The translations under genes and the position numbers were made by a program. This document shows, in pieces, positions 3,210-43,965 of a DNA stretch of 64,000 nucleotides; position 1 is the stretch's first letter, and each line of letters opens with the position of its first letter. The notes under the pieces are model-generated. The model was given only the letters and a program-made list of their open reading frames with translations. It did no database searches and was not told the origin of the DNA. The stretch is from Flavobacteriaceae bacterium PS02334 (GTDB lineage: Bacteria > Bacteroidota > Bacteroidia > Flavobacteriales > Flavobacteriaceae): the NCBI GenBank assembly GCA_029959295.1, contig JASCOH010000006.1, positions 124,001-188,000 of the forward strand, given 5' to 3'.

Positions 3210-3632
3210 ATGAAAATAAGAATAAGTAGTGGGTATTTTAGGGGACAATTTTCTGATGAATTTATACTTGAAAATTGGAATAATGAAGTCAATGGTAGTT
3301 TGGTATCTGAATGGGAGTTGATTGAGGCTGAATTGCCTAATGAAAATTTTATGAAACCAAAATGGGAGGGAAGTCAGTGGACTGAAGGAGCTTCATGGCA
3401 GGAAATAACAGACAGAAATAAAACTTTAATTGATGCTATTAGTGCAGATTATCGTGGAAGAATTAGTGCTTTGGTATTGCCTTATCTTCCAGATTTTGTG
3501 ATCGATGCTATTCCGATACCTTCTCATGTTTTAACTCAAAGATTGGCTTTGCAAGCAGAATGCGATTTCCTAATAAAAGCAATAGATCCGAACCAGTCAA
3601 TGTCTAGGCCTGCAGTTAAAAATCAAAAATAA
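3210..3632 (+). CDS. Small protein following tail fibre
   Basis: 140 residues, no membrane segment. The N-terminal half is Trp-rich (several W and E/N-W pairs), the C-terminal half helical. It sits 10 nt after the fibre gene and 5 nt before the endolysin gene. Small genes just after fibres often encode fibre-assembly chaperones or fibre tips, but I do not recognise a family here, so the role is inference. Confidence 0.5.
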   Translation: MKIRISSGYFRGQFSDEFILENWNNEVNGSLVSEWELIEAELPNENFMKPKWEGSQWTEGASWQEITDRNKTLIDAISADYRGRISALVLPYLPDFVIDAIPIPSHVLTQRLALQAECDFLIKAIDPNQSMSRPAVKNQK

Positions 3633-4135: not shown

Positions 4136-4515
4136 TCGACTGGCTACAACGGTTTTATGATACTTATAAATTCGAAGTTCATGAAGGTCTTTTCTTTTCC
4201 GGATTTGTCATGTTTGGAGTTGTCGTTAAAACGATTCGAGCTTTGCAAAAAGGAACAAAGCTCTCGTTTGCATGGTTCTTTTCTGAATCCTTGATTTCTT
4301 TTTTTATAGCGCTTTTCGTCTACGCTGTTGTGGATCAATTTTTTCAACTTAAGCCATTGTTTACGTATGCAATTTGTGCGTTACTGGGTTCGATGTCTAC
4401 GATTGTAAATAAAAAATTAGAAGAATTGTTAGAGACTGCTTTTGATAGCGCAAAAAGCGGAATTTCGGATTTATTTAAAGCGTTAGTTGAAAAAATTAAA
4501 CCAAAAAAATCTTAA
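4132..4515 (+). CDS. Putative holin
   Basis: 127 residues with about three hydrophobic segments (roughly residues 20-36, 47-70 and 77-92) and a highly charged C-terminus rich in Lys, typical for phage holins. It overlaps the endolysin stop and is followed 2 nt later by the spanin gene. Holin identity rests on topology and cassette position. Confidence 0.7.
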   Translation: MIDWLQRFYDTYKFEVHEGLFFSGFVMFGVVVKTIRALQKGTKLSFAWFFSESLISFFIALFVYAVVDQFFQLKPLFTYAICALLGSMSTIVNKKLEELLETAFDSAKSGISDLFKALVEKIKPKKS

Positions 4516-4517
4516 TT

Positions 4518-5060
4518 ATGAAATCAATTTTGAAAATACTTTTTTTATTCTTGGCATTGACTTTTGCCGTGAGTTGTGGCTCTAAAAAAATAATCAATCA
4601 AACTTCAGTAAAGGAAAATACTTCGGTGTATAAAACTGATAGTATTAAGATCAGTGAAAGAAATAGGGCTATAATTGACAGCCTAAAATTGAAAATTGCT
4701 CAAAGTGCGACTGGAGATAAAAAATTTGATGAAGCGGTAAATAAGTCTATCTCTGAAATTTTGGAAAAATTAAACACTTCAAAATCTTCTGGAGATAATT
4801 CTTATTCATTGGTTTATGATGACGTTTTAAAAGAGTTGCGAGCTGTAATGAAAATCGGTCCGACTGAAAATTTGACTACAATCAATAATGCAACGGTTCA
4901 CACAAAAGAAATTATAAAAGATACGCGCGAAATCCCAGTTAAGTTTATACCTAAATGGGTCTTGGTGGCTTCAATTTTTGGAGGTTGTTGCGCATTTGGG
5001 CTTTTGGCTTTTATAATTTATAAAGTATCAAGATTTTTTAAACCAAAGCTTCCGGTATAA
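4518..5060 (+). CDS. Unimolecular spanin-like lipoprotein
   Basis: 180 residues with a membrane anchor at both ends. The N-terminus is a lipoprotein signal peptide with the lipid-accepting cysteine at residue 20 (FAVSC then GSKK). The C-terminus has a strong transmembrane segment at about residues 148-171 followed by Lys/Arg. The middle is a periplasmic, charged, partly helical region. An outer-membrane lipid at one end and an inner-membrane helix at the other is the layout of u-spanins such as T1 gp11, which fuse the two membranes after peptidoglycan is cut. Position behind endolysin and holin supports this. Confidence 0.75.
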   Translation: MKSILKILFLFLALTFAVSCGSKKIINQTSVKENTSVYKTDSIKISERNRAIIDSLKLKIAQSATGDKKFDEAVNKSISEILEKLNTSKSSGDNSYSLVYDDVLKELRAVMKIGPTENLTTINNATVHTKEIIKDTREIPVKFIPKWVLVASIFGGCCAFGLLAFIIYKVSRFFKPKLPV

Positions 5061-6049: not shown

Positions 6050-6565
6050 ATGGCCAGAACGATGACTTATTTAGATTCTACTGATTTTTTTAAAGATATA
6101 GTCGCAAAAAGTGTGCATCTTAAAGATTATATCGGGCCATCTGAAGCTGAATTAAGAGATAGAATGTCTACTGTTGATGGAATTAAATCGCCATTTCTTT
6201 GTTATTTCAATTACTCGAGTAAGCTTTTAGGCAATAAACAAAGAACTTTAACCGACAAAACTCTCGGATTTTCTATTCTTTTTTCCGGTATAGATGCAAT
6301 GGATTTTCAAGCTCAAAATGTTGCTATTTCTGAAGCGGAAAACATTGGTATAAAAGTACTATCGCGTATCAATATTTCGAGCAAAATGCCAACTATTCCT
6401 TGGCTGTATAATAATTTTGAACAAAGTACCGTACGATTTGAAACGCTTTACGGTGAGGAGGCTGAGGGCTTTTTCGGGATGGAATTTTTCTTTGATTTGC
6501 AACTTCCTGAACCATTAATTGTGGATCCTGCAGACTGGACCGACGGAAATATTTTTTGTACGTAA
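6050..6565 (+). CDS. Phage tail-region protein, unknown
   Basis: 171 residues, no membrane segment. Mixed alpha/beta with a C-terminal region rich in Phe and Pro. Size and place (between spanin and tape measure) would fit a tail terminator or tail completion protein, which is inference. A possible TTG-initiated extension of the next frame overlaps its end, but the next gene more likely starts at 6610. Confidence 0.5.
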   Translation: MARTMTYLDSTDFFKDIVAKSVHLKDYIGPSEAELRDRMSTVDGIKSPFLCYFNYSSKLLGNKQRTLTDKTLGFSILFSGIDAMDFQAQNVAISEAENIGIKVLSRINISSKMPTIPWLYNNFEQSTVRFETLYGEEAEGFFGMEFFFDLQLPEPLIVDPADWTDGNIFCT

Positions 6566-6609
6566 AAATTCTTACTTTTTTTTCGTTATCATTGGTAAAG
6601 ACCAATCAT

Positions 6610-6837
6610 ATGACAAACCAAAATTCCTCCACCATGCCATTAGAAGAAGCTCTTTCTCCGCTTCTTGATGGCAAAATCGACTTAAAGTCTGCCCGGATCC
6701 TTTTAAGCGAAATGTTCACCACTGCAGTATCTCATGCTCCAGATGATGAAATTGACAACTTCACGGCAAAGCGATTGACGCCATTGTATTTGGCGCTCTT
6801 GCAAACCCTTGAAAATCTTGACTTAACCGAAAAATAA
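6610..6837 (+). CDS. Small helical protein, last gene before accessory block
   Basis: 75 residues from ATG 6610. The frame is open to a TTG at 6556, but that start overlaps the previous gene and adds a poorly compatible N-terminus. The protein is helical and acidic (EALSPLLDGKIDLKSARI). It ends 4 nt before a strong terminator, so it closes the first late transcription unit seen in prophage A. Function unknown. Confidence 0.55.
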   Translation: MTNQNSSTMPLEEALSPLLDGKIDLKSARILLSEMFTTAVSHAPDDEIDNFTAKRLTPLYLALLQTLENLDLTEK

Positions 6838-6840
6838 ATT

Positions 6841-6868
6841 AAGCCACTCATATCGAGTGGTTTTTTTT
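6841..6868 (+). terminator. Rho-independent terminator (CCACTC/GAGTGG)
   Basis: Stem CCACTC (6844-6849) and GAGTGG (6855-6860), loop of five, flanked by AAG on the left and eight T on the right. It ends the unit closing at 6837. Confidence 0.8.
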
Positions 6869-6875
6869 ATATTTG
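6868..6875 (+). promoter_or_regulatory. Bacteroidota promoter -7 box (TATATTTG) of the RNA at 6880
   Basis: TATATTTG matches TAnnTTTG exactly. It overlaps the end of the T-run of the preceding terminator. A start site 5-8 nt downstream would fall at the 5' strand of the long-range stem of the RNA candidate. Confidence 0.6.
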
Positions 6876-6879
6876 CACC

Positions 6880-7014
6880 GACCAATTGCATAACGAGGAG
6901 TGCTCCATATTAAGATTCTTAATACTGGAGCTCTCAAGGTTCGGGTTAACTTAAGAGTCCCGGGTTTCATTCCTCGTAGTGATTGGTCAGCCGTAAAAGG
7001 GAGCTCCTTTTTTT
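6880..7014 (+). ncRNA. Candidate structured phage RNA: three-way junction with pseudoknot
   Basis: No credible ORF lies here, but the sequence folds in a nested way. P1 GACCAAT 6880-6886 pairs with ATTGGTC 6982-6988. P2 ACGAGGA 6893-6899 pairs with TCCTCGT 6971-6977. P3 is a 13-bp hairpin: 6902-6914 with 6918-6931, one bulged C and a three-base ATT loop. P4 is 6931-6938 with 6950-6957, one C-A mismatch. The P4 loop TTCGGG (6940-6945) can pair with CCCGGG (6959-6964), giving a pseudoknot. A TATATTTG promoter precedes it and a terminator follows. I could not assign a known RNA class. It may be a trans-acting RNA or a leader of the gene at 7067. Confidence 0.65.
6995..7014 (+). terminator. Terminator of the structured RNA
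   Basis: AAAAGGG (6995-7001) and TCCTTTT (7005-7011) form a stem with a three-base loop, followed by a T-rich tract. The GGAGC inside it could alternatively pair with GCTCC at 6902-6906 of P3, so a switch between structures is conceivable. Confidence 0.6.
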
Positions 7015-7041
7015 CTTTTCTTGTACTCCGGATAATTATTT

Positions 7042-7049
7042 TATATTTA
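7042..7049 (+). promoter_or_regulatory. Weak promoter -7 box (TATATTTA) before 7067
   Basis: It differs from TAnnTTTG at one base and lies 17 nt before the ATG at 7067. It would allow the accessory genes to be expressed independently of the RNA upstream. Confidence 0.35.
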
Positions 7050-7066
7050 TGAACTAAATTTTAGAT

Positions 7067-7582
7067 ATGAAATACTTAATTTTTTTATCAGTGGCCATGT
7101 TTCACCTAGTGGCAAAATCTCAAAATTGTGATTTTAAGATAAATGAAGTCGATGCTTTTACAAAAACAGAAAAAATAAGAACTCAAGACCAGGTTATTTC
7201 TGTGAAAACTTCTGAGGCTATTTATTTTTCTTTTTACTCGAGTAATTCAATTTATATTGATTTTTCTTATCGATTAAGCGGAATAAAATCGATCGTGATT
7301 GGAAGAGATAGCACTTTGATGATATTGTTGAAAAATGAAGAAGTTATTGAATTGTTGCCTTTGCAAACTGAAACTTCAACAATAAATTCGATAAATAATA
7401 CTGAAATTACTTGCATGTACCCGGTTACGGTTGAGCAATTAGAAAAAATTAAATCCGTTGGTTTGAAGAAAGTTCGTTTAAACGCTTTGAGGTTTTATTA
7501 CGAATTTGATATCACAAAAGAAAAATGGGTTAAAAAACTAAATGCTGATATAGATTGCTTTATTAGGAAAATCAATAAATAA
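7067..7582 (+). CDS. Secreted protein, accessory gene
   Basis: 171 residues with a typical signal peptide (residues 1-19, ending VAKSQ) and a beta-rich mature part. No lipobox and no known catalytic motif. It sits with two small cytosolic proteins in a block bounded by terminators at 6841 and 8087, unlike the tightly packed structural genes around it. That layout suggests a moron expressed from the prophage. Function unknown. Confidence 0.6.
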   Translation: MKYLIFLSVAMFHLVAKSQNCDFKINEVDAFTKTEKIRTQDQVISVKTSEAIYFSFYSSNSIYIDFSYRLSGIKSIVIGRDSTLMILLKNEEVIELLPLQTETSTINSINNTEITCMYPVTVEQLEKIKSVGLKKVRLNALRFYYEFDITKEKWVKKLNADIDCFIRKINK

Positions 7583-7591
7583 AACTCTATT

Positions 7592-7837
7592 ATGCCAGAA
7601 ATTCTAAATTACAAAGAAGAAGTGAAGCGGTTAATTTCAGAAATGTATGAACCTGCAGATTCAATTAGCAAGGAATTCAAAATGACCACTGCTAAGCTAC
7701 TGCTCAATCTTCATAGAATTTTGCCGTATAATGCAATTGATGATCACTTGATTTATGAAGCTCTTATCGAGTTGGATTTTCAACCTAAAGAAGAGAAACC
7801 ATTGCAGTTTTATTGGTATTTTAGAAGAAAGTTTTAA
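7592..7837 (+). CDS. Small hypothetical protein, accessory block
   Basis: 81 residues, helical, no signal peptide or membrane segment. It starts 9 nt after the secreted-protein gene and is followed 16 nt later by the gene at 7854, so the three are probably cotranscribed. Not recognised. Confidence 0.55.
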   Translation: MPEILNYKEEVKRLISEMYEPADSISKEFKMTTAKLLLNLHRILPYNAIDDHLIYEALIELDFQPKEEKPLQFYWYFRRKF

Positions 7838-8086: not shown

Positions 8087-8113
8087 AAAACCACTCAATT
8101 GAGTGGTTTTTTT
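8087..8113 (+). terminator. Terminator closing the accessory block
   Basis: AAAACCACTC (8087-8096), AATT, GAGTGGTTTT (8101-8110), extended by T to 8113. The core CCACTC/GAGTGG is the same as at 6841 and 47961. Confidence 0.8.
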
Positions 8114-8166
8114 ATGTCCTTTTTTTCGGTCCGTTGAACTCGGAATTTGCATCAAAATTCAATTTG

Positions 8167-8643
8167 ATGGAAACTCAAGATATTGCACAATTCGAAAGAA
8201 AAGCAGGGCAAACCGCTTCTATAATTCTTACTGCTTCTTTGCGATCTCATATCGGATCTACTTTTAAACGTAGAACTGGAGCAATGGCCAAAACCAATGT
8301 CAAGCCTCGTTACAAAGATGGTCGCCTAGATCGTTTGATCATAAATTCTCCACATTATTCTTTCAAACACCATTTTGGTTCGGTAAAAAAAGGCAAAACT
8401 ATGAGTACGCGTCGACGTGAATCTCAAATAAAAGCCTTTACTCGTCATATCGGGTCAGTGACTATTGCGGTTAAGGCTCACAAAAGAAAAGGTGGCCATG
8501 TTTCTTCTCATGTGAAAAACATAGATTACAAGGCGACAAATCATATTGCAAAATCTTTGCAAACGACTAATGCTCTTGAAAATTTAGCTACTACTTTGGC
8601 AGAAAATCGTGCTGTTTTAATCACTTCTCAAATCGACTTCTAA
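8167..8643 (+). CDS. Tail completion-like protein preceding tape measure
   Basis: 158 residues from ATG 8167; a TTG at 8134 in the same frame would add 11 residues. Strongly basic: many Lys, Arg and His in the middle, including FKRRTGAM and KTMSTRRRES. The stop overlaps the tape measure start (TAATG). A basic protein of this size directly before the tape measure resembles HK97 gp10-like tail completion proteins in length and position only; identity not proven. The equivalent in prophage B could be the gene at 53433. Confidence 0.55.
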   Translation: METQDIAQFERKAGQTASIILTASLRSHIGSTFKRRTGAMAKTNVKPRYKDGRLDRLIINSPHYSFKHHFGSVKKGKTMSTRRRESQIKAFTRHIGSVTIAVKAHKRKGGHVSSHVKNIDYKATNHIAKSLQTTNALENLATTLAENRAVLITSQIDF

Positions 8644-11600
8644 TGGCAGGTGAAAACATAAACAGGCGGTTAAATATATACATTAACGATAAGCAGATCG
8701 TAAATTCTCAGCGAGGAATTGCGAACGAAATGGCTAAAGTTAAAAATGAACTGAGAAATTTAGATAAAGGTGCTGCTGATTATAACGATCGTTTGGCTGA
8801 GCTTACTGATACTTATAGAATGCTTCGTGCGGAACATCAGGATTTCGCTAATTCCTTAAATGAAACTCCAAGCCTGTTAGGTTCTATTAAAGATGCGCTT
8901 GGACCTGTTGCTTCTGGAATCCTTACTGCTTTTTCGGTGGAGGCAATTTTTGAAAAATTTGTTGGTTCCATTAGCCAGGCAATTGAAATCATTATCGACT
9001 TTGACCAAAAGCAAGCGGATCTTGCTGCCATTATGGGTAAAAGCAGAACCGGTATTGCAAAATTAACGGCTGATGCTTTGAAATATGGAGCTTCGACGGC
9101 TTATAATTCTGCTCAAGTTTCAGAACTGCAGACAGAATTGGCTCGTCTTGGAAAAACAGAAAAAGAGATCCGCGCAATGACGGAATCTGTTTTGACCGCG
9201 GCAACTGCTTTGGAGGCGGAACTTGGACCAGCGGCAGAACTTATCGGTGGGCAATTGAATTCTTATGGTGCTGATGCTCGTGAGTCTGCAAGATATTCCG
9301 ATATCATGGCGAATTCGGTTAATATTTCTGCAACGAGTTTCGAAAGCTTGAGTACTGCTTTGCCAAAAGTATCTAAAGTTGCCTACTTGAATAATGTTTC
9401 ATTTGAAAAATTGAATGCGACTCTTGGTGTTTTGGCAGATGAAAATATTGCTGCTGAAACTGCAGGTACTGGATTTAGAAATATTTTACTTGAGTCAGCT
9501 AAGACTGGAAAGCCTTACGAAAAAATGCTTCAGCAAATCAAGAATTCAACCGATCAGAGTAAAACTGCAACTGAATTATTTGGAAAAGAAAACGCAACTG
9601 TTGCAGTTATTCTAGCAAATTCTACTCAAAAAATTAAAGACAATACTGTTGCATTGGAAAATTCTGCAGGTGCGGCCGATAAACTTGCAAAAGAAAAGAT
9701 GAATTCAATAGCCGGATCTTTAGAGCTTTTCTCTGGAGCATGGGAAGGTTTCATTTTGAACATTGAAAAAGGTGACGGTATCATTGGAAAAGCAATTAAA
9801 GGAGTAATCGATATGGGAGCCGGTCTTTTGGGATTGATTACGCCTACGCGCCAACTTTCTGATGAATTGAAAGAAGAGCAATTTAATTTGAACATGTTGG
9901 TTCAAAAAATTCAGTCTTCAAATACTACCAATGAAGAAAGAAAACGTCTTCTTCAGGAATTGAAATCAGAATATCCTGCCTTTAACAAATACTTGGATGT
10001 TGAAAATGCAACTACGGCTCAAATTTGGGAAGCGCTTAGAAGGGTTAATGAAGAATATGTTAAGAGAATTGCTTTGCAAGGTCAAGTTGAAAGAGTTGAA
10101 AAAGCTTCAGGAAAAGTTGCTGAGAAAATATTAAAACAACAGGAGAAACTATTTAAGATTTCTCAAGAATTGACAAAATACAATCTGAATTATAAGCTTA
10201 ATGTTCAGATTGACGAAGGTAATTTAGTCGGTTCTGCTAAGAAAATGCGTGAAGTTCTTCAGAAGCGTGGCGGGGTTATGGAGGAAGGTGCTTCTGATGT
10301 GATTTTGAGCATGATTAAAAATTTAGGTCAAATTAATGGAGAAATAAAAAGCCTGCAGGGAGATCTCGACGAGGAAATGAAAAAACAGCAATTCATGGAG
10401 AAATCTTTGAATATTCAGACCGAAGCTCAGCGTGCTGATAATGATGCCATCAAAGAAAAAATCAAGCTTCGAGAAGAATTGATTAAACAGGCTCGGGAAA
10501 TGGGAATGAAAGATCCTGAGAAAAAAACTTATGATGAGTTAAAGCGTTGGATTGAGCTTGAGAAAGAAAGGCGAATGTACACTGATGAAATGTCTGAAGA
10601 AGATAAAAAGAAATTAGCGAAAGCGATTGCTGATGCTAAAAAACATGCTGAAGATCTTTTGAAAACTGAACAGGATTTGCAGAAAAAACTCTTAGAAGCT
10701 AAAAGAAGCGGTCAAGATTTAGCAAATGAAAGCCTAAAAGATGGTTATGATCGCGAGCGCACACTTTTAAATCAGGATTACGATCGTAAAATCGAAGATG
10801 CAAAAAATAATATAGCAAAAGAAGATCAGGAAATTGCCAAATTAAGAAAAGCTATTGCTGATAAATCGACTTCTCAGGTTGACCGGACTTCGTTTAAAAA
10901 GCAAATGGAAACGAGAAAACAGATTGCTCGTGAAATGGACGCGACACTTCTTTCTTTAGAGCAAACTCGAAATTTAAAACTTGCTGCTCTCCAGGAGAAA
11001 TATTTAGATCTGGAATTCAAAAAACAGGAAGAGGCAAATGCTCGAGAAGTTGCAGAACTGCAAAACAAGCAAAATATTGAGTTGTCTGCAATTATTAGTC
11101 TTAAACAAGCCAAGGAGCTTTTAGATGATAGTCTTAGTGAAAAAGAGCTTTTCAAAATTAAAACTCTTGAAGATGCCAAAAAGAAAATAAAGGAGCAATA
11201 CCTGAAAGAACAATATACGCTTCAGGAAAAGCAACTTATTGATTTGATGGCACGCGTTCAGGAAATTTTTAATACAGAAAATGACAATGAAATTCAGCTT
11301 ATTTCGCCAGAGAAACGAGACGAGCTTTTAAAATTCTTAGATGAATTAGCACTTAAGTTGTCATCTCTCGGTGTTAATAAGGCAGAACTTAAGCCCGATT
11401 CGACTGGTGCTGAAAAAACGGCTTATAGTGGTCTAGACATTCTAGGTTTTACGACTGAAGAATGGGAAGCGGCATTTAATGCGCTTGATACGTTTGAAGG
11501 AAAGCTGAAAGCAATTAAAATGGTAACGGAGTCAATGGGTAAGGCTTTCGGTTCTTTCTTTGATTTTTTAGATGCTCGAGATGCAAGGTCGTTGCAAAAA

Positions 11601-12314
11601 TACCAGGGCGGAATTGATAGGAGAAAAAAAGAGCAGCAAACTCTTTTGGATAAAGGTTATATCAGTCAAGAAGTCTATTCAGCAAGAATTGAGAAGCTTG
11701 ATGCTGAAATGGCTAAAAAGAAAGCCGAAATTGAATATAAAGAGGCGAAAAGAAGAAAAATTTTATCTCTTGCTCAAGCTGTTATTTCAACAGCTCAAGG
11801 TGTGGCAGCTGCTTTATCTGGTCCGCCACCAACGAGTTATATTTTCGCAGGAATTACGGCCGCAATGGGTGCTTTGGAAATCGCAACAATTGCTTCTACA
11901 CCTTTGCCATCAAGAAGCGGATTTAAAAAAGGAGGTTATACCGGTGACGGTTCTGCAGATACTGAAGCGGGTCCGGTTCATAAAGGAGAATATGTTATTC
12001 CTAAAAATGTTCTTTTCGATAAAGATCCCGTGATGCCTCATATTGTAGGGTATGTGGAGGCGAAAAGAACTGGGAAAAAACCAACATTTGATTTCCCTGA
12101 AGACAATCCGGAAGAAAAAGGAAATGCAAGCGCTGGAGATAGTTCTGCTTTGACTCTGCTTTGCGTTCAGGCTTTAGATCGAAATTCAGCAATCTTGGAA
12201 AAAATTGAAGAAAACGGCATGATTGCGTATGTCGAATTAGATATTAAAACCGCCAAAAAAATAAGAACAAAAATCAAAGAATTAGAAACAATTGAAAATA
12301 CATCTAAAAAATGA
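8643..12314 (+). CDS. Tail tape measure protein (prophage A)
   Basis: 1223 residues. The N-terminal 100 residues are helical, followed by a hydrophobic region with a TP901-1-type tape-measure core (about residues 110-380; GKSRTGIAKL, LARLGKTEKEI). Then comes a long charged coiled-coil of about 500 residues rich in Lys and Glu. Near the C-terminus is a hydrophobic stretch (about 1040-1090; AQAVISTAQGVAAALSG) and a Gly-rich end with HKGEYVIPK. The protein sets tail length and is injected with DNA. Its length predicts a long flexible tail; no sheath gene is seen, so siphovirus morphology is likely. Confidence 0.85.
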   Translation: MAGENINRRLNIYINDKQIVNSQRGIANEMAKVKNELRNLDKGAADYNDRLAELTDTYRMLRAEHQDFANSLNETPSLLGSIKDALGPVASGILTAFSVEAIFEKFVGSISQAIEIIIDFDQKQADLAAIMGKSRTGIAKLTADALKYGASTAYNSAQVSELQTELARLGKTEKEIRAMTESVLTAATALEAELGPAAELIGGQLNSYGADARESARYSDIMANSVNISATSFESLSTALPKVSKVAYLNNVSFEKLNATLGVLADENIAAETAGTGFRNILLESAKTGKPYEKMLQQIKNSTDQSKTATELFGKENATVAVILANSTQKIKDNTVALENSAGAADKLAKEKMNSIAGSLELFSGAWEGFILNIEKGDGIIGKAIKGVIDMGAGLLGLITPTRQLSDELKEEQFNLNMLVQKIQSSNTTNEERKRLLQELKSEYPAFNKYLDVENATTAQIWEALRRVNEEYVKRIALQGQVERVEKASGKVAEKILKQQEKLFKISQELTKYNLNYKLNVQIDEGNLVGSAKKMREVLQKRGGVMEEGASDVILSMIKNLGQINGEIKSLQGDLDEEMKKQQFMEKSLNIQTEAQRADNDAIKEKIKLREELIKQAREMGMKDPEKKTYDELKRWIELEKERRMYTDEMSEEDKKKLAKAIADAKKHAEDLLKTEQDLQKKLLEAKRSGQDLANESLKDGYDRERTLLNQDYDRKIEDAKNNIAKEDQEIAKLRKAIADKSTSQVDRTSFKKQMETRKQIAREMDATLLSLEQTRNLKLAALQEKYLDLEFKKQEEANAREVAELQNKQNIELSAIISLKQAKELLDDSLSEKELFKIKTLEDAKKKIKEQYLKEQYTLQEKQLIDLMARVQEIFNTENDNEIQLISPEKRDELLKFLDELALKLSSLGVNKAELKPDSTGAEKTAYSGLDILGFTTEEWEAAFNALDTFEGKLKAIKMVTESMGKAFGSFFDFLDARDARSLQKYQGGIDRRKKEQQTLLDKGYISQEVYSARIEKLDAEMAKKKAEIEYKEAKRRKILSLAQAVISTAQGVAAALSGPPPTSYIFAGITAAMGALEIATIASTPLPSRSGFKKGGYTGDGSADTEAGPVHKGEYVIPKNVLFDKDPVMPHIVGYVEAKRTGKKPTFDFPEDNPEEKGNASAGDSSALTLLCVQALDRNSAILEKIEENGMIAYVELDIKTAKKIRTKIKELETIENTSKK

Positions 12315-14963: not shown

Positions 14964-16818
14964 CGAGAAGATTGAGCTTACACATAGAAAAATCACTTTT
15001 ACAGAAACAAACTCCTGGTTCGAATCTGAATTTAAATCTGAATTTTCTTTTCCTTTTGAAATGCGAAAAGAAGATTTTGTAAAAGTCAGCGATTTCTCAA
15101 ATTATCTTTCTGCAGGTTCAAAAACTCAATTCAAGGGAAAGCTCTATCGCGATGGCGATCTTATTGATGCTACGCTGAAAATTCAGCAGCAAAAAGGGAA
15201 TGTGATATCGGGTATTATTTTCGCAGGAATGGAAGCGTTTCCGAATTTTGATAAAGACTTGAAAGATTTGCCTTTGGATAAGTTCAATGTCGCAGATTTA
15301 AAAGCTCATGCGCTGATAACTATTAGAAAAGATTATCCAGAAGTGAGCCATCAATTTCCAATGATTCACACTGACAAATACGATCCAGCTTCAGATGAAT
15401 TTCACGGTTTTGGAAAATTTTACAATAATTATTCCGAAGGTGAATTTAGAACCAATATTGTACAGTCTGAATCTAATATAGATCTGATCCGAAATATAAT
15501 GCAACCGTTTCCTTATTTGATGCATGTGGTCAAAGCGGGAATAGCTGATGCAGGTTATGAATTGGCAGGTGATATTTTGGAGATTGAAGATTTTAAAAAA
15601 GCGCTAATTTTTAGAGATGGCAGTTATTTTAAAAGTACGACCACAGAGAATATTCCATTTGTTTTGAAAATTAATGAGTGGAGTAGGATTTCTTATATTC
15701 TTGCGGGGCGTGAACATGTGGAATTTAATAAAGATTTAGTAATTGATCGTAAAGGCAATTATTTGATTTTTGGCACAATTTTCAACGTGATGATGAGAAA
15801 CGTTCTTTCATGGCGATCAGATTTGCAGTTGCAATTAAAGCATGTTCGAAATGGGGTTGAAACTATGCTTTTTTCGCGAGATAGAATTCATGGCGGTTCT
15901 GGCGATGGCGCTATTGTCCAAATGTGGAATTTTGATATTGAGATACCAATTTCTATAGAGCCAGGTGATATCATTCGGTTATGGAAAATTGAAGTGAGGC
16001 GTGATGTAGTTCCAGTTCGAGCACCAGACTATCCTGAAGCTTGCTCTTTAGAAATTATTCCTTTAAGATATCTCAATGCCGATGGTTCTCCAATCGTTTC
16101 CGTGTTAGATTTGAACGAAGTAGATTTAACGAGAGTTGTTCCGGATATGAAATTTGGCGAACTGATATCCAATTTGAGAGCTGCTAAAAATTTAGATTTG
16201 ACTATTTCAGGAAATACGGTTTATATGAATTTTATCCAGGATCAATTAAATAGAAATTCTGCTATAGATCTATCTGATTTTGACATTGAGGAGCCTCTCA
16301 GGACTTTTCACGATGAGAGGAGTTACGAGCTCTCATTTTCTGACGGTAATAAGGATTCTCAATATCCTTATGATTCGGTATTTGTACAAAAAGATTTAGT
16401 GGCGACTTCGAATTATAGGATTAATAAAAATACTACCGAATTAAAGCTTGATTTTTTACCATATCCGACAATTGTCAGAAATGGTATTTCTACTTCTTTT
16501 GCTTTCGATGATGAACCTAGCAAGCTTAGGCTTGTTTTCTATAATTCGTCAATTGATGGCCCACCGGTAACGTTTAATAATTTAAATATGACTATTGCTG
16601 CCATTTATCAGCAATGCTATGCAAATTGGATTAATTTTTTAGTGAACTCAATCGGCTATCAGTGGGACTTTATTATTTCCGTTGAGAAATTCAAGTCCAT
16701 AGTAATTCAGTCGCTTATTTATTCTTACTCAAATTTCCATGTTTTTACAGAAATTGAAAAGGAAAGGATCAGCAGATTGTCCTGGCGCGTTTCTGCAAAA
16801 TCAGAATCTTTAATCTGA
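14938..16818 (+). CDS. Distal tail protein, last late gene of prophage A
   Basis: 626 residues, mixed alpha/beta. An N-terminal domain of about 120 residues begins with a short beta hairpin and the block SEFSFPFEMRKEDF. The layout resembles the tail-hub-like gene at 59417 in prophage B (both follow the tape measure region and are about 600-750 residues), but no clear sequence match is seen by eye. Its stop overlaps the integrase stop by 9 bp on the other strand, without a terminator between them. Confidence 0.55.
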   Translation: MIYFILDNNEKIELTHRKITFTETNSWFESEFKSEFSFPFEMRKEDFVKVSDFSNYLSAGSKTQFKGKLYRDGDLIDATLKIQQQKGNVISGIIFAGMEAFPNFDKDLKDLPLDKFNVADLKAHALITIRKDYPEVSHQFPMIHTDKYDPASDEFHGFGKFYNNYSEGEFRTNIVQSESNIDLIRNIMQPFPYLMHVVKAGIADAGYELAGDILEIEDFKKALIFRDGSYFKSTTTENIPFVLKINEWSRISYILAGREHVEFNKDLVIDRKGNYLIFGTIFNVMMRNVLSWRSDLQLQLKHVRNGVETMLFSRDRIHGGSGDGAIVQMWNFDIEIPISIEPGDIIRLWKIEVRRDVVPVRAPDYPEACSLEIIPLRYLNADGSPIVSVLDLNEVDLTRVVPDMKFGELISNLRAAKNLDLTISGNTVYMNFIQDQLNRNSAIDLSDFDIEEPLRTFHDERSYELSFSDGNKDSQYPYDSVFVQKDLVATSNYRINKNTTELKLDFLPYPTIVRNGISTSFAFDDEPSKLRLVFYNSSIDGPPVTFNNLNMTIAAIYQQCYANWINFLVNSIGYQWDFIISVEKFKSIVIQSLIYSYSNFHVFTEIEKERISRLSWRVSAKSESLI

Positions 16819-18021
16819 TTCCATATCCATATTATCAAGGAGCATGATTTCACGATCCTGATCTTCCTGGACAATTTTCACATAGATCATTGTTTCTTGG
16901 ATATCACTATGGCCCAGTATTTTCTGCAATACTGTCACATCGCCACCTTGCCTAATAAAATTGGTGGCGAATGTGTGACGGCCAACGTGAAAAGTGACCA
17001 CTTTGTTAATGCGTACTTGTGATGCGCACTCTTTCAATTTTTTATTAATTGTCTGTTCAGCAATTGGAACATCAAATAAATCTGGACGTTTAGCCATGAT
17101 CTTAATGGCGTAAGTACTGAGTTTTACATTCTGATTTTTATTTGTTTTGATTGAAGTAAATTTCAGAGCTCCGTTTACTACTTTGCTCGAAGTCATTTGC
17201 AACGCATCACTGATTCTTATTCCCGTAAAACAGGAAACAAGAAAAAGTCCTAAGGGAATTTCATGATTTTCTCTAAGGAATTCTGAAAAATAATATTTAT
17301 ATAGTTTTTTCACTTCATCAGCAAGCAGGTATTCTCGGTTGCCGTTTGTTGATCCCACTTTGATCTGTTTCATTTCTATTGGTATTACAATTCCTGAATC
17401 AAGCGCCTTTCCAATGTATTTTTTTATGCAGGCTAAATCTGTATTTATTGTAGTGTCTTTTCTTCCTTTCGTTCTTGAGAATTTAATATAATTCATGATC
17501 ATGTTGATGTCTAGGTCAGCAAAAAGAATTTTAGACTTAAATATTCTTAGATTTTTAAGTACCGATTTTTGTTTTTTAATAGTATTCGGATGAAGGTTTT
17601 CTGGATTCTCCTTTACTAAATAATCATAGAAAGTTATAAAATCGATTCTTGGTATTCCATTATTAAATTCATCTAGAAACTTATCCATCGTTAGCATTTT
17701 TTTAGCTAAAAAGAAATAAGTTTTTATAGCAGTTATTTTGGAATCAATATTATCCAGGATTAAATTAAGTCCTACGTCTTTTTCTGTTTTTCCAGTCGTG
17801 CGTTGTGATTTTTTGTCCCACTCGCTTGCCTTTGTTTCAAGTTCTAGCGAAATTCTCTCTCGATGACCTATAGTTATGTGTAGAATTATAGGCGAAAAGC
17901 CTTTTTTGTTAATGTATTTTCGAAGTACAAAATCGTATTTCATTGGCACAAATATTTTTTTTGTGTCAACTTGTGTGTCAAAAATGGATGGAAGTGGTGT
18001 CAGAATTCTCATTTCTTTCAA
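16810..18021 (-). CDS. Tyrosine recombinase integrase
   Basis: 403 residues. N-terminal arm-binding domain (about 25-75), SAM-like core-binding domain (about 100-210) and C-terminal catalytic domain. Visible catalytic residues: Arg269 (TGIRISDAL), His345 and Arg348 (HVGRHT), His371 (GHSDI) and the nucleophile Tyr380 (MIYVK). The start may be at 18021 or at an ATG three codons in. The 5' end faces the tRNA-Phe fragment at 18094, the usual position for an integrase next to its attachment site. It is convergent with the tail gene and therefore assigned to prophage A. Confidence 0.9.
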   Translation of the reverse strand: MKEMRILTPLPSIFDTQVDTKKIFVPMKYDFVLRKYINKKGFSPIILHITIGHRERISLELETKASEWDKKSQRTTGKTEKDVGLNLILDNIDSKITAIKTYFFLAKKMLTMDKFLDEFNNGIPRIDFITFYDYLVKENPENLHPNTIKKQKSVLKNLRIFKSKILFADLDINMIMNYIKFSRTKGRKDTTINTDLACIKKYIGKALDSGIVIPIEMKQIKVGSTNGNREYLLADEVKKLYKYYFSEFLRENHEIPLGLFLVSCFTGIRISDALQMTSSKVVNGALKFTSIKTNKNQNVKLSTYAIKIMAKRPDLFDVPIAEQTINKKLKECASQVRINKVVTFHVGRHTFATNFIRQGGDVTVLQKILGHSDIQETMIYVKIVQEDQDREIMLLDNMDMESD

Positions 18022-43746: not shown

Positions 43747-43914
43747 ATGTTAGAAATAGTAAACGGCCGAATATTCTTTAACGGTATAGAAACAACAGAT
43801 CCTGAGCTTATTGGTTATGCAATGCTTGATTTTGCTGAATCAACTCAGGGCGATATGTATAGCATGCAGCTTAAAGAATCTGACGTGTTTGTGCAATACA
43901 TCAGTCAAAAATAA
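43747..43914 (+). CDS. Small protein upstream of lipoprotein
   Basis: 55 residues from ATG 43747, acidic, mixed alpha/beta (NGRIFFNGIETTDPELIGYA). Well placed behind a promoter. Not recognised. Confidence 0.5.
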   Translation: MLEIVNGRIFFNGIETTDPELIGYAMLDFAESTQGDMYSMQLKESDVFVQYISQK

Positions 43915-43965
43915 ACAGGGAAGCCGAAAACTGAATAGAGTAGGCAAATCAAAACCAAATTTACA

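Follow-up and report, generated by a model that had tools for sequence, protein, structure and literature searches.

A conserved pseudoknotted RNA of Flavobacterium prophages and its possible role as an antisense regulator of a tail-region gene

A structured RNA in the prophage tail region

The DNA analysed here (the window) is a stretch of 64,000 nucleotides from Flavobacteriaceae bacterium PS02334 (GCA_029959295.1, contig JASCOH010000006.1, positions 124,001 to 188,000), of which positions 6868-7011 appear to encode a conserved, non-coding, structured RNA, termed RNA1, whose structural support is good enough for the family to be regarded as real and as absent from Rfam. RNA1 and its sister elements may be phage antisense or switch RNAs that control the translation of a tail-region gene, a reading suggested by sequence complementarity and given an even chance. 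The setting is a prophage, as indicated by PHROGs matches for a tape-measure gene (8643-12314) and an integrase (16810-18021); the other eight of the ten prophage proteins scanned gave no PHROGs match, and the names tube (6050-6565), chap1 (6610-6837), 81-aa gene (7592-7837) and moron used below are taken from position or appearance, not from matches.

Homologues and alignment

RNA1 is present in one copy in the window's genome. A direct DNA search with RNA1 of 50,697 phage records gave no match, and among 150 genus genomes, at E up to 1, the 50 matches are the window's own and 49 short, weak ones; a search for related loci from a single neighbouring protein found none. Of 398 genus genomes searched with the tube-position protein, ten gave a match; in four, among them that of the window itself, the match is close. 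The other three close genomes each carry an RNA near the tube-position gene, namely F. kayseriense F-47 (L034/L053), F. bernardetii F-372 (L033/L052) and L032, in which the RNA is strongly diverged. All six IMG/VR contigs found with the tube-position alignment carry RNA1, and two further IMG/VR members, L065 and L080, came from pattern scans; other pattern matches, among them L083, as well as L047, were judged unrelated to RNA1. The RNA1 model R1 matched 3 of 398 genus genomes, and model R2 matched one of 397 family genomes, the window's own, and missed L032, which had been found by synteny. Alignment A12, on which the structural statistics are based, comprises ten distinct RNA1 members from Flavobacterium prophages and IMG/VR contigs, with the promoter left out and without a duplicate of L053 (L044/L054/L061, one IMG/VR contig). 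The phages are interrelated, so that counts across members are not independent.

The elements of RNA1, all on the plus strand, are the following:
6868..6875, +, predicted promoter -7 box TATATTTG with fixed spacing to the predicted +1 at 6880 (G, first P1 base)
6880..7007, +, RNA1, structured non-coding RNA (P1, P2, P3, P4, linker, 3' pseudoknot strand), from fold and covariation
6880..6889, +, P1 5' strand GACCAATTGC; P1 is 100% paired in A12
6893..6901, +, P2 5' strand (9 bp), pairing with 6969-6977
6902..6931, +, P3 hairpin, 6902-6907/6926-6931 and 6908-6914/6918-6924 (6+7 bp), with double changes in two pairs
6927..6935, +, pseudoknot 5' strand GGAGCTCTC, overlapping the P3 3' strand and pairing with 6999-7007
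6940..6964, +, P4 hairpin, 6940-6945/6959-6964 and inner helix 6949-6951/6956-6958; P4 is 92% paired
6969..6977, +, P2 3' strand, pairing with 6893-6901
6979..6988, +, P1 3' strand GTGATTGGTC, the proposed antisense seed, complementary to 6600-6609
6999..7007, +, pseudoknot 3' strand GGGAGCTCC, followed by a T-run and pairing with 6927-6935

Fold, strand and covariation

The original prediction of a folded stretch without credible coding potential is borne out: 6868-7014 has a minimum free energy (MFE) of -49.8 kcal/mol (z -4.09), with none of 200 shuffles folding as well, and stops break each of the six frames in nine or ten of the ten A12 members. The minus strand of the region also folds (z -5.37), and as both strands fold well in isolation, a DNA element (for recombination, packaging or as a protein-binding palindrome) or a chance hairpin has to be considered in place of an RNA. 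This is, however, highly improbable in view of the fixed promoter distance, the compensatory changes, the non-nested pseudoknot and the one-strand preference for G-U over A-C. On the plus strand of A12, G-U cells outnumber A-C cells by 36 to 5 in the nested helices and by 18 to 1 in the pseudoknot, which indicates that the plus strand is the RNA.

Within A12, 93.2% of the 426 cells of the nested structure are paired, compared with 38-48% when the partner strand is slid by one to three columns. Seven pairs have changed on both sides, a number reached by 17 of 500 shuffles, while the covariation score and the number of cells changed on both sides are reached by none of the 500. Further pair types are no more numerous than in shuffles, 403 of 500 reaching the observed number for the nested helices and 452 of 500 for the pseudoknot. 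The closing stems foreseen from the letters are confirmed as P1 (10 bp) and P2 (9 bp), and the predicted 13-bp hairpin corresponds to P3 (6+7 bp). Six of the ten P1 pairs are invariant, P2 shows double changes from G-C to A-U at two pairs (in 4/10 and 1/10 members), and the inner helix of P4 is 88.9% paired with double changes in two of its three pairs. Compensatory changes, looked for among the homologues in A12, are thus present in P2, P3, the inner P4 helix and the pseudoknot. Two elements of the original prediction are lost: the 3' strand of an 8-bp hairpin (CTCTCAAG/CTTAAGAG) is missing from the other A12 rows, and the two segments thought to form a pseudoknot, 6940-6945 and 6959-6964, are both strands of the nested stem P4, with 92% of cells paired.

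The pseudoknot that is conserved lies between 6927-6935 and 6999-7007, where 94% of the cells are paired, against 46-68% when slid by one to three columns, and three of ten pairs carry double changes, a number reached by 4 of 500 shuffles. What had been taken for a terminator is mainly the 3' strand of this pseudoknot. According to the alignment, L065 shows joint changes in the junction strand and the tail (GGGAGCATTC with GAGTGTTCCC) and no longer has the local 3' hairpin, while in L062 and L080 the hairpin is weak and the pseudoknot is kept, indicating that the conserved element is the pseudoknot and not a terminator. A conserved intrinsic terminator was rejected for RNA1, the local 3' hairpin not being kept across members; the T-run after the pseudoknot 3' strand is present in the window and absent from most of the nine sequences compared. 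The pseudoknot has bases in common with the foot of P3, so that the two compete; when each is evaluated as a separate duplex, the pseudoknot is the stronger one in every one of seven members. The proposed competition of a terminal GGAGC for the P3 strand therefore survives in altered form, in that the 3' tail does pair with the P3 3' strand, together with four more bases, as a conserved pseudoknot.

Promoter box and predicted transcription start

Sigma-A boxes of F. psychrophilum have the form TAnnTTTG and are located at -12 to -5 (excerpt of PMC9723704), a position that sets the predicted +1 of RNA1 at 6880, the first P1 base. In all ten aligned members, TATNTTTG followed by four nucleotides places the predicted start on the first closing-stem base pair, and the succession of box, 4 nt and first G of P1 recurs in 14/14 elements (ten RNA1, L032 and three RNA2, the latter described below), one RNA2 box deviating from the others (TACTTTAG). 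The earlier claims that RNA1 has a promoter box of its own (TATATTTG, with the same 4-nt gap in 14/14 elements) and starts on the first base pairs of the closing stem (predicted +1 at 6880) hold in this respect. A TTG 15 nt upstream of the box accompanies five of the 14 elements, all of which precede the long chap1 paralogue; the other nine, including that of the window, are without it, and for those nine the promoter claim is weakened. A relaxed grammar scan (box, 4 nt, P1, pseudoknot), written once the elements were known, finds 13 of the 14 elements (L063 is missed) and nothing else in 11 loci; a stricter scan finds 3 of 14, and 20 shuffled versions of the window give no match with either. 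The RNAs located ahead of the long paralogue have upstream of them a conserved block TTGGGGT..GCAC..TTG, followed by 15 nt and a TAnnTTTG-like box (L032 2560-2602, L052 5477-5519, L055 5281-5323, L056 5308-5350 and, in reverse-complement numbering, L080 3753-3795), which from its sequence could possibly be an activator-dependent promoter.

Genetic neighbourhood

RNA1 is placed between the tube-position gene and the 81-aa gene, on the same strand, in ten members, and its immediate neighbours vary. The order is chap1-RNA1-moron in the window and L080, moron-RNA1-81 aa in L053, L057, L062 and L063, another ORF-RNA1-81 aa in L065, long paralogue-RNA1-81 aa in L055 and L056, and moron-RNA1-long paralogue in L052, with the RNA of L032 placed likewise. 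This variation argues against a leader for one particular gene, and the suggestion of a riboswitch-like leader for the gene at 7067 is not upheld, since the directly downstream gene differs in most relatives. In a broader form, RNA1 would act in cis as the 5' leader of the tail genes that follow it, be it a riboswitch, an attenuator or an antiterminator-like element, with the 3' tail switching between pairing to the P3 strand and a local terminator hairpin. This is judged rather unlikely: RNA1 does stand upstream of the 81-aa tail gene in ten aligned members on the same strand, and directly precedes it in L053, L055, L056, L057, L062, L063 and L065, but the directly downstream gene is the moron in the window and L080 and the long paralogue in L052 and L032, against the 81-aa gene in those seven. 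Mutually exclusive pairings of the P3 3' strand would suit such a leader, as would the cis-type relation of RNA2 to its gene, whereas L065 has lost the local 3' hairpin and L062 and L080 have a weak one, with the pseudoknot kept, a separate terminator-like hairpin stands between RNA1 and the moron in L080, and the 81-aa start is not notably complementary to RNA1.

Terminator-like sequences were read from the sequence on both sides of RNA1 in L080, where two such hairpins flank it, and after the upstream gene in the window:
6844..6868, +, terminator-like hairpin CCACTC/GAGTGG with T-run after the upstream gene, read from sequence

A hairpin of the CCACTC..GAGTGG type with a T-run and ATGTCC is also found before the gene upstream of the tape measure, and is similar in three phages (window about 8091-8120; L034 about 3465-3500; L080 about 4505-4550, reverse-complement numbering).

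Complementarity to the start of chap1

The proposed target of RNA1 comprises two features:
6600..6609, +, proposed target GACCAATCAT, immediately ahead of the start codon at 6610, complementary to 6979-6988
6610..6837, +, 75-aa tail-region gene chap1, the proposed regulated gene, with relatives aligned

The chap1 protein has no Pfam or PHROGs match, its AlphaFold model is all-helical (mean pLDDT 77.8), and its profile gives two matches among 397 genomes of the family, one being that of the window itself and the other a weak match to an open frame of 497 aa. All ten aligned RNA1 members share the invariant P1 sequence GACCAAT, a copy of which stands in the chap1 leader, at 6600-6609 in the window and further upstream of the ATG in L053, L055, L056 and L080; the leader in L065 reads GATCAAT. 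This match was noticed first and then tested on the same sequences. When the starts of ORFs of at least 60 aa on both strands are ranked by pairing with the P1 3' strand, chap1 comes first of 119 in the window (-15.5 vs -11.6 kcal/mol for the next), first in L053 (1/21), L055 (1/23), L065 (1/21) and L080 (1/23) and second in L056 (2/27), and thus ranks first or second in six of the eight phages tested, the window included. The suggestion that the stretch is a phage small RNA is accordingly retained as far as a phage regulatory RNA is likely; its supposed action on the host is replaced, on the ORF-start ranking, by the phage's own 6610-6837 as the candidate target.

The target match is missing in L057 and L063, where chap1 ranks 10/10 and 16/24 though RNA1 is kept, and inspection of the ORF list of L062 shows no short-form chap1, so that RNA1 persists without a chap1 target in three of nine phages. 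The best-ranked start in L063 belongs to the 81-aa gene, and the 60-nt window of that start overlaps with the 3' part of RNA1 itself. The persistence of RNA1 in these three phages would fit a structured RNA that works in trans, chiefly with a protein or with an RNA of the host or of a competing phage (as a decoy, sponge or anti-defence element), the match to the tail gene being secondary. The conserved junction and linker sequences and the terminator-like sequences that bound RNA1 in the window and L080 are in keeping with this, but none of the results obtained here links RNA1 to a defence system or a protein, the ORF-start ranking would then be a coincidence in most phages, and the proposal is considered unlikely.

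Compared with background windows, which include RNA1's own 5' strand, the fraction for the 60-nt chap1 start is 0.0055-0.0216 in six of eight phages, 0.94 in L057 and 0.54 in L063. None of 11 tube-position starts and none of 5 tape-measure starts (2 further starts not found, 4 phages left out) reaches 0.05 as a control in 60-nt windows, and swapped RNA/gene pairs give 0.24-0.88 (6 tests). The start of the 81-aa gene was rejected as a target, being unremarkable in 9/10 members and at 0.079 in L053, with none of the ten below 0.05. For the long paralogue, the fractions are 0.0029-0.0040 with RNA2 (3 phages), 0.0236 in L052 and 0.0467 in L032, and its start ranks 1/20 in L052, 1/6 in L032, 1/23 for L055-RNA2, 1/27 for L056-RNA2 and 2/23 for L080-RNA2, where the top rank goes to an antisense ORF with a start window that, judged from the coordinates, overlaps with RNA2. 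When all 24-nt windows are scanned (the first 18 kb in the case of the window), the target ranks 1 in L053, L055 and L065, 2 in the window and 3 in L056, and is outside the top six in L080, L057 and L063, while for L062 an intergenic GACCAATGG is listed; L052 has rank 5, L032 rank 4 and the three RNA2 rank 1. The RNA1-chap1 match is therefore less outstanding over all windows than among ORF starts only.

The duplex energies bear on whether P1 could yield to the target. In the window the RNA1-target duplex is stronger than RNA1's own P1 (-15.5 vs -13.1), but P1 is the more stable in 7/11 pairs (the other five RNA1-chap1 pairs, L052 and L032), the exceptions being the window and the three RNA2, and unassisted displacement is doubtful in those seven. 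The invariance of six P1 pairs, while P2, P3, the inner P4 helix and the pseudoknot vary, is expected if P1 is tied to a target.

RNA2 and the RNA of L032

Three phages, namely L080, L055 and L056 (L059 and L060 come from the contigs of the latter two), have another conserved sequence, RNA2, directly upstream of the long chap1 paralogue, which is the gene directly downstream in 3/3:
L080 3800-3925 (reverse-complement numbering), RNA2, conserved sequence with RNA1-like architecture
L055 5328-5456, RNA2, likewise
L056 5355-5483, RNA2, likewise

A pattern for RNA2 gave no match in 150 genus genomes. The order of parts is that of RNA1, with P1 from +1, P2, P3, a pseudoknot strand, P4, P2', P1', a linker and the second pseudoknot strand. 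In the three sequences 110/110 cells (100%) are paired, against at most 51% in slid versions, and double changes are found in nine pairs of P1, P2 and P4, with P3 invariant; the pseudoknot has no double change in the three sequences, and one of its pairs varies on one side only. The RNA of L032 is almost wholly different in sequence and has P1, P4 and a 7-bp pseudoknot, P3 being not evident. Its plain MFE structure is another fold (-44.0); with the pseudoknot strands reserved, the nested fold has -31.1 and the duplex adds -11.0.

The 3' strand of RNA2 P1 is complementary to the downstream start-codon region at 10/10 positions in L080, 11/11 in L055 and 10/10 in L056, and the P1 sequence varies between phages, co-varying with the start codon of the paralogue. 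In a 5x5 matrix of own against other pairings (three RNA2, L052, L032), the own start region pairs best in every row and column, and among 5000 shuffles of the sequence after the ATG, 7 (L052), 3 (L032), 1 (L080), 0 (L055) and 0 (L056) are as strong. For L080 and L056 the MFE structure of RNA2 is the start-codon hairpin, and for L055 it is one that includes P1. With the start-codon hairpin favoured in the first two, their P1 fold reaches a comparable energy only with the pseudoknot duplex added, before any pseudoknot penalty, which makes it plausible that RNA2 is a bistable cis translational switch.

Proposed mechanism

The antisense reading, in which RNA1 and its sisters control translation of a tail-region gene, builds on the conserved structure, the promoter spacing, the complementarity and the co-variation of sister-element P1 with the start codon, all of which can be read from the sequences. 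A sigma-A promoter of its own would drive RNA1, the transcript beginning with the first P1 base. Of the two P1 strands, the 3' one would act as antisense to the translation start region of chap1, while the 5' strand, as an internal copy of the target, would keep the antisense strand closed, and the 3' pseudoknot, in competition with the base of P3, would hold the fold. Opening of P1, or a target that out-competes the 5' strand, would allow the antisense strand to cover the start region and to block initiation. F. johnsoniae has been described as lacking Shine-Dalgarno sites, with structure at -20 to +20 lowering initiation (excerpt of PMC6847099). RNA1 would act on chap1 in trans, or over a long range on the same polycistronic mRNA, whereas in RNA2 and the RNAs of L052 and L032 the P1 3' strand would pair with the start codon of the long paralogue as a cis translational switch. 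That RNA1 is transcribed and affects translation, which way the switch works, what triggers it and whether it serves lysogeny or superinfection exclusion are matters of inference.

A wider and more tentative proposal, considered somewhat doubtful, is that these elements form a new class of phage riboregulators with one grammar, in which the transcript opens with a copy of the target gene's start region, this copy forms P1 with its own antisense strand, and a pseudoknot at the 3' end secures the structure. There would be one RNA per tail-region paralogue, with RNA1 serving the short form and RNA2 the long one and changes in P1 bringing about retargeting, and the RNA of a lysogen would silence tail assembly from its own stray transcripts and from incoming relatives. 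If true, each RNA would carry an antisense inhibitor together with a built-in antidote. If right, Flavobacterium prophages would harbour an RNA family outside Rfam with a pseudoknotted architecture that is kept while sequence and target change, and RNA may serve phages as a means of regulating single tail-region genes. Because the predicted target is defined to the nucleotide and is not the same in every phage, it is directly testable by compensatory mutagenesis.

Relation to known RNAs

The original prediction placed the RNA outside known classes, in agreement with an Rfam scan (4227 models, gathering thresholds), which gave no RNA1 match in the whole window and none in ten loci that include the RNA1 relatives and RNA2; at E up to 10 there is no credible match in 6800-7100, and none to C4. 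Packaging-type pRNA, ribozyme, tRNA-like and guide-RNA identities were rejected for RNA1 after checks with Rfam and ARAGORN. Other phage RNAs, such as the HK022 put RNA and the lambda 6S/t-R' leader, likewise begin with a promoter-proximal fold at the head of a transcript; they are likened to RNA1 by this general description only, and nothing seen here points to antitermination. Translational riboswitches are comparable to RNA2, in which the P1 3' strand is common to an internal helix and a start-codon hairpin, but RNA1 and RNA2 have no Rfam riboswitch match and their helix copies the start region of the gene; the fixed single downstream gene of a riboswitch or attenuator is not seen with RNA1.

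Among antisense RNAs, C4 of phages P1 and P7 (RF01695) belongs to an immunity system, where this small structured RNA interacts with its target mRNAs; it acts via its a' and b' loops and is cut by RNase P from a larger transcript (excerpt of PMC5320573). RNA1 is likewise a small structured phage RNA, and by its complementarity to the chap1 start a candidate antisense RNA, but differs from C4 as described there in having the proposed antisense strand in its closing stem, a promoter box of its own and a pseudoknot, and does not match RF01695. STnc6030 of prophage BTP1 is a late-region RNA complementary to a tailspike and a DNA-injection gene and confers superinfection exclusion (excerpt of PMC7067206; also named in an excerpt of PMC12197685). 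In that account it exceeds 700 nt and lies on the strand opposite its target, whereas RNA1 is about 130 nt long, highly structured, on the strand of its proposed target and complementary over about 10 bp. By analogy, RNA1 could possibly provide immunity against related phages. In the open-licence literature on small RNAs of Flavobacterium and temperate phages, structured phage RNAs and tail-chaperone regulation, no description of RNA1 appears in the titles and abstract openings among the matches listed.

Further observations on the loci

The cargo genes adjoining the RNA vary, with a SHOCT domain in one phage and TM2 and HIRAN domains in another (L034 2377-2868; L033 2106-2678). Between the two paralogues of the gene at 6610, a 178-aa gene is found on the minus strand (L060 7547-8083; L059 7327-7863), which by eye looks antirepressor-like. 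Elsewhere in the window, a DUF805b RNA (RF02914) at 43914-43946 on the plus strand is the sole Rfam match at the gathering threshold.
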